The position numbers were made by a program, and so were the translations under genes. Source: a virus. From it: 62,754 bases of DNA. Positions 1,294 to 59,648 of this stretch are shown in pieces. The notes under the pieces were generated by a model. That model worked only from the letters and a program-made list of their open reading frames with translations, searched no databases and had not been told where the DNA came from. Location: IMG/VR virus record IMGVR_UViG_3300020472_000024, positions 1-62,754 of that record; one strand, given 5' to 3'. Position 1 is the stretch's first letter, and each line of letters opens with the position of its first letter.

Positions 1294-2107
1294 ATTTCTT
1301 CCAAAACTCTCTCATCTTATTATAATTTCTGTTAAAACCTTCTGTTAATAATTGTCTTGTCATATTACTTTCTTTTTCAAAATTTGGATCATCATTTTTA
1401 TCTATATTTACATAATCAGATTCATCTCCAGGTATTAATATGAATTGTGCAATCGGTGTACCTGCCTTGATTATTGTTTCTCCTTCTGTACTATGCCAAA
1501 ACATTGGTACGGTACCTATGGTAGCGTGACCTAATCTTGGTTCAAGTACACCAGAACAAGTTGTAAATCTAAAATCATCTTGGTAAAAAGGATGAAGTTG
1601 TAATAGTTTATAACCTTTAGGTATTCTTGCCACCCAAGGTAAATTAAATTTCATTAATCGTTTTAATGTATCTTTTGGCCAATTCTCAAAGAAAGGTGCC
1701 ATTGATTGTTCTTGGTGTGATGTAATTAAAGGCATATTATTCATTGATTGGGATGGATTTATAAATCTAAAATTTTCACCTTTAACTTCTATCTTAACGT
1801 CTTGGTGTAATCTCATTATCCAACCTGTGTTATGCCACATTTGTAGTGCTGGACATTTTGATGTATGTCTATTTTCTTCTTGTTTAAATTTTTGATGTTC
1901 AGGTACATCATACATTTCCTGACCGTGTCTATATTGTTTTGTTATTGAACCACCTTCTTTGAAATCTCTTGCTGCCTTTTTCACCCAACTAGGTTTTAAT
2001 GAAGACGCTTTTACTATTGGCATTGTTTTATCAATGCCTGGTATTGTGGCAATAAATTCTACTTTAGGTTTTGATTTATCTCCCCCACCTGCTAATTTAT
2101 CAAACAT
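1283..2107 (-). CDS. Conserved hypothetical protein (possibly DUF6065-like)
   Basis: 274 aa, soluble. An N-terminal basic region leads into KCPALQMWHNTGWIMRLHQDV and a core of short strands (FWHSTEGETIIKAGTPIAQFILIP). I associate this arrangement with a family common in T4-like cyanophages (possibly DUF6065), but I recall no biochemical role. The start ATG overlaps the gp59 stop (ATGTTTGA), so the two genes are co-translated. The cupin-like strand pattern near the C-terminus could bind a small ligand, but no metal-binding histidine triad is evident. Confidence 0.5.
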   Translation of the reverse strand: MFDKLAGGGDKSKPKVEFIATIPGIDKTMPIVKASSLKPSWVKKAARDFKEGGSITKQYRHGQEMYDVPEHQKFKQEENRHTSKCPALQMWHNTGWIMRLHQDVKIEVKGENFRFINPSQSMNNMPLITSHQEQSMAPFFENWPKDTLKRLMKFNLPWVARIPKGYKLLQLHPFYQDDFRFTTCSGVLEPRLGHATIGTVPMFWHSTEGETIIKAGTPIAQFILIPGDESDYVNIDKNDDPNFEKESNMTRQLLTEGFNRNYNKMREFWKKYGW

Positions 2108-2708
2108 TTTTAATTACCTCTTTCATTATTAATTTACATTCTGTCAAATTATAGTTTATAAAAGGTTTCAACTTGGTAACCTTATGTGCGATTTTAGGCC
2201 AGACAACCCTTTCTTTAATTTGTTTATTCCAATTTTTGATAAACGATAAGACTTGGTCAAGCACAACGAAGGTTTGGAAAGACGTTCTCCTCTGGATAAG
2301 TAAACGTAAAAGTCGTGGATGTTGTCCGCTATTGCAAATGAAACCATCATCAAAAGAAATACGCTTACTGCTAAAGTCATTAAGAATATTAACAAAGTCG
2401 TTTCTAAAATGAAATTTAAAATTGTCTTTAACTTTTTTATAATTGAGGTATATCTCTCGTCCATCATTTTCTAATAAGTTACCAATCCAGTTCTTGTCTT
2501 TGTCAATAAAATTTGCAACAAAGAAATCAAGTATTTCATCTTGTTTATATTTTGTGCTAAGTTTGTGAAAAAAGTATCTGTCATTTCTTTTTGTAAATGT
2601 ATCTAGTTTTATATTTACCTTACCATCATAGTCAAAATAATTATAGTTGGTAGTAAAATGTAATTTAACTGCCATATAGACTCTAAAAACATCAAACCCT
2701 CCATACAT
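2100..2708 (-). CDS. 59: gp59, loader of the gp41 replicative helicase
   Basis: 202 aa from the chosen start MYGGFDVFRVYMAV, close to T4 gp59 (217 aa). The segment KRNDRYFFHKLSTKYK, then FFVANFIDKDKNWIG and a KFHFRNDFVNI stretch, follow the T4 order (KRRDKYFFQKLSEKYK, ISNL..NQDAWIG, KFKFEEDIRNI, from memory). The protein brings gp41 helicase onto gp32-coated forks. The ATG overlaps the upstream stop (TAATG) and an AAGGA site lies 9 nt before it; an ATG-like start three codons earlier lacks such spacing. gp33, gp59 and gp32 appear in the same relative order as in T4, with extra genes inserted. Confidence 0.85.
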   Translation of the reverse strand: MYGGFDVFRVYMAVKLHFTTNYNYFDYDGKVNIKLDTFTKRNDRYFFHKLSTKYKQDEILDFFVANFIDKDKNWIGNLLENDGREIYLNYKKVKDNFKFHFRNDFVNILNDFSSKRISFDDGFICNSGQHPRLLRLLIQRRTSFQTFVVLDQVLSFIKNWNKQIKERVVWPKIAHKVTKLKPFINYNLTECKLIMKEVIKNV

Positions 2709-2950
2709 TAGAACCAATCCTTATTAGGCGGTATCTCAACGTCTGTTTCATTATACTTATCATACCATAAACTAAGCAAAGCAATAACAACACCTAATAT
2801 TATAAGACCCCATAAACCTGTTGACTTTTCTACAAATAATAAATGATATAATACCTCAACACCATTCATACCTTCTAATGGATTTGCTTTTTCAGCATTT
2901 TGTGTGAGTTTGTCCATAAACTCGTCCATTGCTTTTAACTCATTAGACAT
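2708..2950 (-). CDS. Small single-pass membrane protein
   Basis: 80 aa. An acidic/basic N-terminal half (ELKAMDEFMDKL) precedes one clear membrane segment (GLWGLIILGVVIALLSLWY, about residues 45-64) and a short acidic tail ending KDWF. No lipobox. It sits between a 51-aa ORF and gp59 with short overlaps on both sides, so it belongs to the gp33-gp59 operon. I do not recognise the family. Confidence 0.6.
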   Translation of the reverse strand: MSNELKAMDEFMDKLTQNAEKANPLEGMNGVEVLYHLLFVEKSTGLWGLIILGVVIALLSLWYDKYNETDVEIPPNKDWF

Positions 2951-3090
2951 TTTAATTCTTCTAACGCTTTCATTAAAGGATGTTTCATAACTTTTTTGTT
3001 ATTCATTTTTGGTATTGCCTTTAGAAATTTAGGATATTGTATATTTAATTTTATAATAACTTCTTCAAGTAATTTATCTTTTCTGGTCAT
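2935..3090 (-). CDS. 51-aa basic hypothetical protein downstream of gp33
   Basis: Short ORF starting MTRKDKLLEEVIIKLNIQYP, rich in lysine and leucine, predicted mostly helical. Its ATG overlaps the gp33 stop (ATGA) and its end overlaps the next start by 16 nt, the compact coupling used throughout this genome. T4 places the small DNA-binding protein DsbA next to gp33; this ORF is shorter and I cannot show homology. Confidence 0.5.
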   Translation of the reverse strand: MTRKDKLLEEVIIKLNIQYPKFLKAIPKMNNKKVMKHPLMKALEELKCLMS

Positions 3091-3302
3091 ACAGGTAATG
3101 TACCACCTTTTTTCTCTTTTAACATTTTAAGATTGATTGCTTCGTGTTTGATTTTCTCTTTCAATGATTTGTTAACCATTGAGTTGATTGTGCCTACATC
3201 AATGTCGTGTGTCTTACAATAGTCTATTATGGCGTCCATATATGGCATTTTATTCTCTTTGACCATTGCCTCTATTTTTAAACTAAATTCTTTACTATTC
3301 AT
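3087..3302 (-). CDS. 33: gp33-like late-transcription co-activator
   Basis: 71 aa from the chosen start MNSKEFSLKIEAMV. The core KMPYMDAIIDYCKTHDID followed by SLKEKIKHEAINLKML lines up with T4 gp33 (GMSYLEATTAFLEENSI..IIEKIQSEAIDENLL, from memory). gp33 bridges host RNA polymerase beta flap and the sliding clamp to activate late promoters; TATAAATA boxes are present in this window. A longer frame exists from a TTG at 3332, but that start lies inside the -35/-10 region of a strong promoter, so the ATG at 3302, 6 nt after the -10, is preferred. Confidence 0.8.
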   Translation of the reverse strand: MNSKEFSLKIEAMVKENKMPYMDAIIDYCKTHDIDVGTINSMVNKSLKEKIKHEAINLKMLKEKKGGTLPV

Positions 3303-3308
3303 ATCTAC

Positions 3309-3337
3309 ACTATAACATATTTCTTTAAGCAAGTCAA
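3309..3337 (-). promoter_or_regulatory. Sigma70-like early promoter P2 for gp33, leaderless geometry
   Basis: TTGACT (3332-3337), 17 nt spacer, TATAGT (3309-3314), then 6 nt to the gp33 ATG at 3302. It predicts +1 on the start codon. Confidence 0.85.
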
Positions 3338-3344
3338 GGGTATC

Positions 3345-3402
3345 GTGTGGTTACTCACGCTAGCTTTCACCACACTTCGGCGCCTACCTAACACACGGTT
3401 AG
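3345..3402 (-). other. Two inverted repeats between peroxiredoxin and gp33
   Basis: On the minus strand a 5-bp stem CTAAC/GTTAG (3388-3392 with 3398-3402) overlaps the peroxiredoxin stop, followed by a 7-bp stem GTGTGGT/ACCACAC (3345-3351 with 3369-3375). No T-run follows, so a classical terminator is doubtful; it may be a transcript-end or processing structure upstream of P2. Confidence 0.4.
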
Positions 3403-3929
3403 ATATTCTCTAATACTTTTTCTGGTGATGATACCGTATAAGGGTCATCATCATCACTATAATTATTAATACCTGGTTCTTCAAACCATTTTTCTACTAT
3501 GCCATTTTTAACTACAGCAGCATATCTCCACGATCTCATACCGAAACCTTGAGCAGGTTTATTTACTAACATACCCATTGATCTAGTAAACGTACCACAA
3601 CCATCTGGTATCATTTTTACATTCTTAATATCTAAATCTCTTGCCCAGGCATTCATTACAAATGCGTCATTTACTGATATACAATATACATCATCATAAC
3701 CTTGTTCTTTAAATTTTGAATATAACTCATCATACATAGGTAATTGTTGTCCTGAACAGGTAGGTGTAAATGCACCTGGTAAACTAAACAACACAACTTT
3801 TCTATCTTTAAATAGATCATCTGTTGTTATATCTTTCCAAGTACCACCAATAAAAGTACAACCACCTTTTTCATCGGTGTCGCCTTCTCTAAATTTGAAA
3901 GTGTGATTTATTAATTTACATTGGTTCAT
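3399..3929 (-). CDS. Peroxiredoxin (Prx5/thiol-specific antioxidant family)
   Basis: 176 aa, normal length for Prx5. The active-site loop VVLFSLPGAFTPTCSGQQLP carries the peroxidatic cysteine with the conserved P, T and T. The family also shows the SVNDAFVMNAWARD helix start and a GIVEKWFEEPG C-terminal strand. It reduces peroxides using thiols and should act in the cytoplasm (no signal peptide). Further cysteines exist, but a resolving partner cannot be assigned. It is the first gene after the phage tmRNA, with a TGAGGA ribosome site before the ATG. It probably protects the infected cell, or late virion assembly, from oxidative damage; a glutaredoxin gene lies 10 kb upstream in the same genome. 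Confidence 0.85.
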   Translation of the reverse strand: MNQCKLINHTFKFREGDTDEKGGCTFIGGTWKDITTDDLFKDRKVVLFSLPGAFTPTCSGQQLPMYDELYSKFKEQGYDDVYCISVNDAFVMNAWARDLDIKNVKMIPDGCGTFTRSMGMLVNKPAQGFGMRSWRYAAVVKNGIVEKWFEEPGINNYSDDDDPYTVSSPEKVLENI

Positions 3930-3949
3930 TATATATTCCTCATTATTAA

Positions 3950-4185
3950 GTGCCTGATTCTGTTGCGAGGTTCAGGCAAACCCCAAGCAGTTATTATGCT
4001 GCTAAAGCGTAACTTTCGTTAGCATTTATAATTTGACATTACGGTGTCAGCGATTTAACTCCAATAAGTTTTAGTAGCAGTCGAATCTAACTCACCCCCT
4101 CAAAGCACACATCAATGTGTTTTAAATTGGTGGAGGTGGTGGGTATTGCACCCACGTCCTCACTAGTTATTGTCTTATCTTCAAC
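3950..4185 (-). ncRNA. ssrA: tmRNA (ssrA), circularly permuted two-piece type
   Basis: Transcribed on the minus strand, acceptor piece first. That piece (about 4185 to 4128) ends with a T-arm (GTGGG/CCCAC, 7-nt loop TGCAATA) and an acceptor strand CACCTCC followed by encoded ACCA. A 28-nt linker with an ACACAT/ATGTGT hairpin (4100-4127) follows. The coding piece begins GGGGGTG at 4099, pairing 7 bp with the acceptor strand, and carries GATTCGAC typical of tmRNA. The tag frame (4023-3991) encodes ANESYALAA plus two stops, close to E. coli ANDENYALAA. A P2 helix TTATTG (4062-4067) with CAATAA (4167-4172) joins the pieces, and an H-type pseudoknot follows the tag. tmRNA rescues stalled ribosomes and tags proteins for proteolysis. 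The outer ends are approximate. Confidence 0.93.
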
Positions 4186-4195
4186 ATTAAATTCT

Positions 4196-4534
4196 TTAAT
4201 TCTGTAAGGTCTTATTCAAAACCACATCAAAGGTCCTAAACAAAATGCAAGTGTTATTAGGATTGTCAGGTGTTTGTACTGAAGCAAATGATTGAGTTGT
4301 ATCGTTCATCCAATAAACTATCATATAAACAATTTCTCCATCTGGTTTTCCACCTGCTCTACCATAACTTACATTAAGAGGCACAAACTTATTGTCTGTT
4401 GCCCACCTATTAATTTCATCATTCGTGGAACATATTGCTGGCAATTGTTCCCACCAAAAGTTGTATTGTTTCTGCGTTTCTGCATAAGCAATACTTGTAA
4501 ATAATAATGTTAAAATTAGTGTTAATATTTTCAT
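4196..4534 (-). CDS. Secreted/periplasmic hypothetical protein
   Basis: 112 aa from MKILTLILTLLFTSIAYA, a clean type I signal peptide with an AYA cleavage site. The mature part has cysteines in AICSTNDEINRWA and NNTCILFRTFD that could form a disulfide. The ATG at 4534 has an AAGGA site 5 nt upstream; a TTG 24 nt earlier is unlikely. It ends just before the tmRNA acceptor piece and has a TATAAATA box about 94 nt upstream, suggesting a late transcript containing this gene, tmRNA and peroxiredoxin. I do not recognise the family. Confidence 0.65.
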   Translation of the reverse strand: MKILTLILTLLFTSIAYAETQKQYNFWWEQLPAICSTNDEINRWATDNKFVPLNVSYGRAGGKPDGEIVYMIVYWMNDTTQSFASVQTPDNPNNTCILFRTFDVVLNKTLQN

Positions 4535-4584: not shown

Positions 4585-5280
4585 CTATGTCGTACTTTTG
4601 ACTTTACCTTTGTTAAGTTCTTCGTAATATTTATAAAAGTCTTGGATCGCTTTACCCAGCGACTCTTCGTAATCTTTTCTATTCTTCTTGTAGCAAGCAA
4701 CAGAACCATCTTCTCCTGCAAGTAATATAACAATTTGTTCTATGGGTTTACCGAATATCTCCTCATACATAATAGCATAGGCAGTACATTGTAAAAAGTA
4801 ATTATCTATCCAAGACTCTTGTCGTTCTTTGTTTGCTGTTTTGAAATCTATAACTGAAAGTTTACCATTGTATTCAGCAACACAATCAACTTGACCTGCA
4901 ATGGTCAATTTGTGTGAGTACATAATTGCCTCTAACAAATGAATATTGTTTATCTGATCTACGTATGGTTTTAATAATTTAAAAAGTCCTATTGGTAATA
5001 CACTTCTCTCACTAGGAGTTTCACCTTTTAGATATTGTTCTATTAATGTGTGAGTTGCCTTACCTCGTCTGGCTGCTCGTGCCATTTCCCAATTAGCAGC
5101 GCCTTCACCTACGTTCTTACGCCACTCTATTAGACCATCTTTTTTTCTGATATTTAAAACGGTAGTTACGGAAGGATAGTTCTTGCCATCAACTTCGTAA
5201 AACCTGTGTCCGTCTATTCTTCTACCTTTAGTTTTAGGTAAAAGGTCTTTGTTTATTTCTTCAAATTTAAATTTACTCAT
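4585..5280 (-). CDS. PD-(D/E)XK exonuclease of the RecB/Cas4/MGME1 type
   Basis: 231 aa. Motifs in order: RGKATHTLIEQYL (the GxxxH-type motif I), IAGQVDCVAEYNGKLSVIDFKTANK (D then DFK, the metal-binding motifs II/III) and LQCTAYAIMYEE (QxxxY motif of RecB-family nucleases). The pattern matches small single-domain RecB nucleases related to mitochondrial MGME1, common in marine phages, which degrade or process single-stranded DNA ends. It probably serves DNA recombination or host DNA breakdown. An early promoter with an 8-nt gap to the ATG precedes it. No helicase domain is present. Confidence 0.8.
   Translation of the reverse strand: MSKFKFEEINKDLLPKTKGRRIDGHRFYEVDGKNYPSVTTVLNIRKKDGLIEWRKNVGEGAANWEMARAARRGKATHTLIEQYLKGETPSERSVLPIGLFKLLKPYVDQINNIHLLEAIMYSHKLTIAGQVDCVAEYNGKLSVIDFKTANKERQESWIDNYFLQCTAYAIMYEEIFGKPIEQIVILLAGEDGSVACYKKNRKDYEESLGKAIQDFYKYYEELNKGKVKSTT
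4628..4635 (-). promoter_or_regulatory. Candidate late promoter box TATAAATA before the secreted protein/tmRNA/Prx group
   Basis: Exact TATAAATA inside the 3' end of the exonuclease gene, 93 nt before the ATG of the secreted protein. As it is intragenic, chance occurrence in AT-rich DNA is possible. Confidence 0.4.
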
Positions 5281-57947: not shown

Positions 57948-58207
57948 GCACGAGTCCATAGGAATCTTGGTATACCACCACTATTTTCCCATACACGGTT
58001 CTTATTTTGAAAGTCTGCTAGTTTCTGTGCGTCTTCTTCAAAGAAGTATTCCGAAACAGCATTTTTAGTAGGGTGTTCTATAACTTGCCAGACAAATTTA
58101 CGACCTCTTTTTTTCATCTTAACTTTATAAGATAATTTAGGATACTCTTTATCTGATCTAGGTTTTCTATCACCTCTATGGAATCTCACTTTTTGTTTTT
58201 TAGGCAT
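57944..58207 (-). CDS. Basic small conserved protein
   Basis: 87 aa, starts MPKKQKVRFHRGDRKPRSDK; middle RGRKFVWQVIEHPTKNAVSE and end GGIPRFLWTRA. Very basic start suggests nucleic-acid binding. Its last bases overlap P10. Function unknown. Confidence 0.55.
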   Translation of the reverse strand: MPKKQKVRFHRGDRKPRSDKEYPKLSYKVKMKKRGRKFVWQVIEHPTKNAVSEYFFEEDAQKLADFQNKNRVWENSGGIPRFLWTRA

Positions 58208-59648
58208 TGTATATTTCCTTTATTGCTTGTTTGTGAGTAATTAAATCCCAACTAGCAATTTCAGCATTTCGTTGAGATTCAAATAAGTCTAATTTTGATA
58301 TTATTTTTTCATCTAATTTTAAATATTTTTCTTTTATAATATCTCTATTAATCATATCTAGTCCTTCTAATAAGACTACAAAGTGTTGTGGTTGAAATAA
58401 AACGTATCCACTATCATTAACTAAATCATCAACAGCAGGTAATCTAGTTTTCCATAAATGTAATTTCTCTGCTAAACTATCAGGTATATCCATTTCTTTT
58501 ATGTCTTGCCAAAATTTAGAATCTTTTCTAGGAGTAATATAATGTAATGCTACAAAATCTCTAATGTTATTATTAATACTTGTAATACTTTTATTATACC
58601 ATTTAATAGTATGTTCATTATAGTTTAATATATTTTGACTTAAAACATATGCTGATTGAATAGAAGAACCAATTGAGGATGCCTCTAAAGGTTCTATAAA
58701 GTTAGCACTTAAACCAACTGCAACACAATTTTTAATCCAAGTATCTTTTAAAGCACCTGGATCAAACTTAATATGTTTCTTAACATCTATTTCATATCCT
58801 AATTCTTTTTCAACTTCTTCTTTTGCTTGCTCTGGTGTTATATAACTACCATCAAAAATATATCCATTACCGTGTCTACCTTGTACAGGTATTTTAAATC
58901 TCCAACCATACTTCATTGCTTTTGCTAGTGTCCACATATTATAATTGTCTTCGTCACCAGTTGGAAATACAATAGCGGAATTCATTTTTAAATACTTGTC
59001 ATATGATTCCCACTCAGCACCTAGTTTATTGATTAACAATTTTTTAAATCCTGTACAATCAATATAGAAATCTGCATTGTAAGTATTGTCTTTACTTAAA
59101 ACTTCTTTTATACTTCCGTCTTCTTGTAATTTTACATCTGCTATTTCGTCATCTGTAATAGTAATGTTTCTTTCAATACACTTTTCTTGCAACCAAGTAT
59201 TTAATTTATGAGTATCAAAATGAAATTGAGCAGTTACTATTGATTTTAAAAGTTTTGCAGGGTACATACTATTTTTAATATGTTTATCAGCAGGACAATT
59301 TCCATCATTAATTAACTTATGATAATATATAAAGTCACCTGAATTTTTAATTGCTTGCATTTCGTATGATACGGTATTAAGATAATCTGGAGTTCCCCAA
59401 TCTTTAAAATTTATACCAAATTTAAAAGTAGCACCACAATGTTTTATTAATGACTCTTTCTTCTCACCAATATATGCTAAAAAATCTGACCAATGTTCAG
59501 TAGAACCTTCACCTACACCTATAATTCCTACCTTATCTGATTTTACAATATCAATATTAAGTTGTGGATATTTTGTTTTTAATATTAATGCTGTAACTAA
59601 ACCTGCTGTGCCAGCGCCTACAACTAATATTGAATCAACTTTATTCAT
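58200..59648 (-). CDS. Flavin-dependent tryptophan-halogenase-like enzyme
   Basis: 482 aa. FAD site ILVVGAGTAGLVTALILKTK; VGIIGVGEGSTEHWSDFLAY is the family GVGE block; ATFKFGINFKDWG includes the catalytic Lys position. MKYGWRFKIPVQGRHGNGYI stands where W-x-W-x-IP lies, with Phe for the second Trp. SANFIEPLEASSIGSSIQSA is the conserved FIEPLEAS motif. It should form HOX and halogenate an aromatic substrate; a cyanophage enzyme (VirX1) of this family is known. Host substrate unknown. Confidence 0.85.
   Translation of the reverse strand: MNKVDSILVVGAGTAGLVTALILKTKYPQLNIDIVKSDKVGIIGVGEGSTEHWSDFLAYIGEKKESLIKHCGATFKFGINFKDWGTPDYLNTVSYEMQAIKNSGDFIYYHKLINDGNCPADKHIKNSMYPAKLLKSIVTAQFHFDTHKLNTWLQEKCIERNITITDDEIADVKLQEDGSIKEVLSKDNTYNADFYIDCTGFKKLLINKLGAEWESYDKYLKMNSAIVFPTGDEDNYNMWTLAKAMKYGWRFKIPVQGRHGNGYIFDGSYITPEQAKEEVEKELGYEIDVKKHIKFDPGALKDTWIKNCVAVGLSANFIEPLEASSIGSSIQSAYVLSQNILNYNEHTIKWYNKSITSINNNIRDFVALHYITPRKDSKFWQDIKEMDIPDSLAEKLHLWKTRLPAVDDLVNDSGYVLFQPQHFVVLLEGLDMINRDIIKEKYLKLDEKIISKLDLFESQRNAEIASWDLITHKQAIKEIYNA

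Follow-up and report, generated by a model that had tools for sequence, protein, structure and literature searches.

The tmRNA locus

The window, the whole 62,754-base stretch of viral DNA analyzed here, contains a complete circularly permuted tmRNA gene on the minus strand at positions 3949-4235, identified with both cmscan and ARAGORN. The surrounding genes are those of a phage and encode a gp59 helicase loader, a late-promoter regulator, exonucleases, an endolysin, a DnaB-like helicase, a primase and ribonucleotide reductase. Among 50,697 phage records, the best match is to Pelagibacter phage HTVC008M, and the window comes from a marine phage with relatives among the known SAR11 viruses. 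A tryptophan-halogenase-like gene is also present (58200-59648; phrog_2928, E 7e-101). The features of the tmRNA gene and its neighbors, all on the minus strand, are as follows.

4585..5280, minus: exonuclease gene, upstream border of the address (phrog_298, E 1.4e-67; synteny)
3949..4235, minus: permuted tmRNA (ssrA) gene, as delimited by alpha_tmRNA (RF01849, 94.4 bits; ARAGORN)
4128..4192, minus: acceptor piece, spanning the P2 5' strands, the T-arm and the encoded CCA, 5' end putative (sequence; RF04321 alignment)
4053..4192, minus: P2 helix in three parts, 4192-4186/4059-4053, 4179-4174/4068-4063 and 4165-4161/4079-4075
4139..4155, minus: T-arm, 5-bp stem 4155-4151/4143-4139 with a 7-nt loop (RF04321 alignment)
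4132..4138, minus: acceptor stem (7 bp), 3' strand, partner of 4099-4093, with U70 of G3-U70
4130-4128, minus: encoded CCA (sequence reading)
4100..4127, minus: linker (intervening segment), 28 nt, weak hairpin (sequence reading)
4093..4099, minus: GGGGGTG, where the coding piece is predicted to begin (sequence; RF04321 alignment)
4028..4049, minus: PK1 pseudoknot, upstream of the tag
3997..4023, minus: tag reading frame ANESYALAA (ARAGORN; sequence)
3991..3996, minus: two stop codons, TAA TAA (sequence)
3952..3984, minus: 3' H-type pseudoknot
3399..3929, minus: peroxiredoxin gene, next downstream (phrog_2281, PF08534)
3087..3332, minus: late-promoter transcription regulator, labeled gp33-like here, the other border of the address (phrog_254, E 6.8e-23; synteny)
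2100..2717, minus: gp59 helicase loader (phrog_269, PF08993)

Two Rfam models match the RNA above their gathering scores: RF04321 (tmRNA_permuted) at 4191-3994 with 97.7 bits (E 9.1e-18; gathering score 47), and RF01849 (alpha_tmRNA) at 4235-3949 with 94.4 bits (E 2e-24; gathering score 50). The alpha model scores higher than the beta (RF01850, 73.9 bits) and cyanobacterial (RF01851, 34.1 bits) models, both of which remain under their cut-offs. ARAGORN reports the same gene, with the tag ANESYALAA followed by two stops, as the sole tRNA or tmRNA of the window. A sequence-only reading had proposed a phage-encoded, permuted two-piece tmRNA of the alphaproteobacterial type, and the alpha_tmRNA search that it put forward as a check bears this out. 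It gave no strand, but every feature that it named is present on the minus strand: the T-arm, CCA, GGGGGTG, P2, tag, stops and pseudoknot.

The gene has the order expected of a permuted tmRNA, with the acceptor piece ahead of the coding piece. Read 5' to 3' along the minus strand, the 5' strands of P2 are followed by the T-arm, the 3' strand of the 7-bp acceptor stem, the encoded CCA, the linker and GGGGGTG, after which come the 3' strands of P2, PK1, the tag, the stops and the 3' pseudoknot. By sequence reading, the acceptor stem contains the G3-U70 pair associated with alanylation. The tag frame ends in a hydrophobic protease signal immediately before the stop codons.

Conservation of the structure in phage relatives

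We aligned 46 non-redundant phage relatives and drew the structure on the row of the window, a procedure that inflates the percentage of paired cells (89.9% compared with 80.5% shuffled) more than it does the count of two-sided changes. Changes on both sides occur in 36 of the 59 modeled pairs compared with a shuffled mean of 20.4, and the covariation score is 0.267 compared with 0.118 for shuffled alignments and 0.022 to 0.059 for slid structures. Both the Rfam E-values and covariation this far above the shuffled and slid controls show that the match is not due to chance.

The three parts of P2 (helices 1-3) are 99.4, 96.7 and 87.4% paired, with four pairs showing two-sided changes in each. 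The T-arm stem (helix 4) and the acceptor stem (helix 5) are paired in 100% of cells, and three of the five T-arm pairs show two-sided changes. The G3-U70 position is a U-G pair in all 46 aligned rows, although rows were extracted with a pattern that fixed part of the acceptor sequence. PK1 (helices 7 and 8) is 93.0 and 82.2% paired. The 3' pseudoknot (helices 11 and 12) is 79.0 and 86.1% paired with two-sided changes in all ten pairs, and one of its pairs is a weak spot, with 26 of 45 cells unpaired. Two further weak spots are the linker hairpin (helix 6, 79.2% paired) and the helix around the stop codons (about 73%).

At two viral loci just downstream of an exonuclease gene (L243 and L288), the acceptor stem GGGGGTG/CACCTCC is replaced by GGGGTGG/CCACTCC. 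The rearranged stem consists of compensated changes that keep G3-U70; RF04321 detects both of these RNAs and ARAGORN neither.

The tag and its selection

To read tags from a set chosen irrespective of the tmRNA, we used 80 relatives of the exonuclease, in which tags could be read for 42 of 43 tmRNAs. ANESYALAA is found in 31, DNESYRMAA in five and ANESLALAA in two, and there are four single examples. The final two residues are invariantly alanine, and all four alanine third bases are found at the last codon. Among 14 distinct nine-codon sequences, a simple single-step count over 91 pairs gives a pN/pS of approximately 0.26, that is, purifying selection on the tag. Together with the two-sided changes and the pairing, this shows that the tmRNA is maintained.

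The five DNESYRMAA tmRNAs (L069, L469, L471, L473 and L474) lie approximately 640 bases past the exonuclease gene. In their tag, aspartate replaces the alanine of the resume codon and the last four residues are RMAA. ARAGORN recognizes only one of the five, and the other four were found by RF04321.

Comparison with the tmRNA of SAR11

We drew 97 genomes evenly from the SAR11 order; alpha_tmRNA scores above its cut-off in 86, and ARAGORN reads 85 of these. All 85 tags are nine residues long: 28 are ANESYALAA, 19 ANDELALAA, 12 ANNKLALAA, and the remaining 26 differ. ANESYALAA is absent from the 26 tags read from other alphaproteobacteria (the best 30 loci of 96 genomes drawn). The sequence-only reading had remarked on the short tag and supposed that it could redirect degradation; given that SAR11 tags are equally long and often identical, this is not supported, and we likewise rejected the nine-residue tag as a novelty.

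The comparison with SAR11 ssrA suggested by the same reading gives a divided answer. The SAR11 gene is permuted like that of the phage and the tag is shared exactly with the 28, but the mean identity of the window RNA to those 28 RNAs is only 63.7%. The resume-and-tag stretch is 86.0% identical and the regions elsewhere 54-64%. In addition, the linker is 6-16 nt in SAR11-dominated sets compared with 28 nt in the window, and RF01849 scores in the SAR11 order are 189-244 bits compared with 94.4. Thus, the window RNA carries a host-identical tag on a diverged body.

Six SAR11 genomes (G174, G183, G189, G138, G128 and G005) have weak second alpha_tmRNA fragments approximately 0.2-3.3 kb from the intact ssrA, which are possibly leftovers of elements that integrated there.

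Genomic address and distribution

At viral loci positive by ARAGORN, the tmRNA commonly has the exonuclease gene on one side and the gp33-like and gp59 genes on the other. This conserved address extends to loci whose neighboring proteins are only about 30-45% identical to those of the window; some ARAGORN-positive loci are without these neighbors. A pattern scan of viral sequence gave, among the matches listed, 79 ARAGORN-positive loci of 120, of which 14 have the tag ANESYALAA.

The gp33-like gene is found in 78 of the 80 exonuclease relatives; these 78 therefore have both borders. The tmRNA is present in 43 of these (37 by ARAGORN and six by RF04321, the latter from 41 searched) and is absent by both programs from 35. 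The gene is therefore dispensable. Four changes are needed to account for its presence on the exonuclease tree, and one locus (L440) is an empty address within a tmRNA-bearing clade.

A promoter scan near the tmRNA gene showed no excess (11 sites compared with 9.7 expected), and cmscan found no glutamine riboswitch at the window locus. On a different viral contig (L084), a permuted tmRNA and a glutamine riboswitch occur together (3189-3535 and 5124-5172).

Origin of the phage tmRNA

In a tree of 196 distinct rows, the 83 phage rows form one side of a branch (SH-aLRT 96). Without the tag codons, phages in a 75-row sample are again apart (UFBoot 85, with the bootstrap not settled; SH-aLRT 100), and 18 of the 19 pelagiphage rows group in a clade with 100/100 support, the exception being L019, which is placed elsewhere. 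Both runs warn of long branches. As no beta or cyanobacterial rows are included, the tree cannot decide whether all phage tmRNAs derive from a single capture; none of 100 betaproteobacterial genomes passed the RF01850 cut-off to provide an outgroup. The beta model scores best at four of 19 scanned phage loci (L016, L037, L008 and L022).

Distances between tmRNAs track those between exonucleases (r 0.81, n 75) and between gp59 proteins (r 0.87, n 64), and none of 999 permutations reached these correlations. Within the near clade alone, r is 0.63 (n 52) against the exonuclease and 0.65 (n 43) against gp59. Because the divergence of the tmRNA follows that of phage core genes, long inheritance with the phage genome is suggested, and the gene appears to have long belonged to phages and to have kept one fixed address. 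The sequence-only reading had taken an alphaproteobacterial host as the probable source. A recent capture from a host is rejected, given the 64% identity to SAR11 tmRNA and the separate phage clade; an alphaproteobacterium may have been the source long ago. We tentatively suggest, at somewhat less than even confidence, that T4-like marine phages have their own old tmRNA lineage, inherited with core genes at one address, and that in SAR11 phages the diverged body has kept or re-acquired the exact tag of the host.

Proposed function

The RNA is likely a working phage copy of the permuted two-piece tmRNA that would carry out ordinary trans-translation with host partners and so keep ribosomes in use. 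Beyond the gene, its fold and tag frame, the selection on both and the conserved address, which the data show, we infer transcription, cutting, charging, rescue and a phage benefit along the following lines. Host tRNA-processing enzymes would cut the transcript within the 28-nt linker, and the resulting acceptor and coding pieces would stay joined through the acceptor stem and P2. The RNA would be charged via G3-U70 by the AlaRS of the host and delivered by SmpB to ribosomes stalled on mRNA that is broken or has no stop codon. No SmpB was found in either of two phage records, those of the window (a fragment) and HTVC008M, so we set aside a phage-encoded SmpB, and that of the host would be used. 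Translation of ANESYALAA and the stop would release the ribosome, and the product would be destroyed by host proteases, which should read a tag identical to that of many SAR11 tmRNAs. The phage would gain in that ribosomes stay in use. In E. coli infected with T4, host SsrA is reported to remain stable (PMC9697503). The need for a phage copy is consequently not obvious, and the earlier suggestion that it favors rescue while host RNA decays is weakened. The absence of the gene from 35 of 78 near relatives with both borders, and the lack of a promoter excess close to it, also count against the proposed function.

Several other explanations were considered. The phage RNA could be charged and bind SmpB and ribosomes mainly to compete with or dampen the host tmRNA. 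There is precedent in phage DS6A, whose tmRNA without a coding region is reported to inhibit the endogenous tmRNA in E. coli (PMC11915505), and the body of the window RNA does differ from that of the host. However, a pure decoy needs no tag, and the tag here has an open frame, is identical to that of the host and evolves under purifying selection, making this role improbable. We regard as similarly unlikely a role in attack, in which host proteins would be tagged early in infection and their amino acids recycled. The authors describing phage Melnitz proposed this from the position of its tmRNA beside an early promoter (PMC9004378), but the promoter signal at the window locus is not above chance and, as the tag is that of the host, no selectivity for host proteins is visible.

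A captured host ssrA could also persist without function as a relic of integration or transduction, ssrA being described as a common integration site (PMC11915505). This reading is strongly disfavored and, in our estimate, very improbable: the gene is complete with strong covariation and a tag under selection, it keeps its address in phages whose neighboring proteins are only some 30-45% identical, and it co-diverges with the exonuclease and gp59. Ordinary trans-translation by a phage-maintained tmRNA is the explanation we prefer.

Comparison with known phage tmRNAs

Two-piece tmRNAs in the Methylophilales phage Melnitz and related pelagimyophages were published in 2022 (PMC9004378). That study assigns 53 of 133 phage tmRNA structures to the two-piece form, gives a two-piece tmRNA for 17 of 47 clustered contigs by its authors' count, and places the gene upstream of the late-transcription coactivator. 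The presence of such RNAs in pelagimyophages, and at this position, is thus already known. RF04321 was built in a study that counted 79 unique phage tmRNAs (PMC11915505), and tmRNAs are also reported in Bradyrhizobium phages (PMC12656738). In the literature searched, which included few subscription papers, we found no report of a host-matched tag on a phage tmRNA.

Like the window RNA, those of Melnitz and the pelagimyophages are permuted, of the alpha type and from a related group of T4-like marine phages. However, the Melnitz locus has a glutamine riboswitch that the window locus lacks, and its authors infer acquisition from an alphaproteobacterium, whereas in our trees the phage sequences branch separately. 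In the portions of PMC9004378 consulted, tags, covariation, tag selection and the exonuclease border are not found, and its text mentions neither a tag peptide nor an exonuclease. HTVC008M has a tmRNA (KC465899 145157-145414; RF04321, 90.6 bits) that is not annotated as an RNA, with the same address and fold and 69% identity to that of the window over 80% of the query. Its tag is the ten-residue ANFNEYALAA and its linker 49 nt, compared with ANESYALAA and 28 nt in the window.

The points added here are small: the covariation, the selection on the tag, the combination of a host-identical tag with a diverged body, and an address of long standing. Most reports of phage tmRNAs mention them only briefly. 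In the many uncultured marine phages compared here, selection is visible on the structure, the tag and the position alike, so that two questions become open to testing: whether SAR11 phages rely on a ribosome rescue of their own, and why their tag matches that of the host when the remainder of the RNA has drifted.
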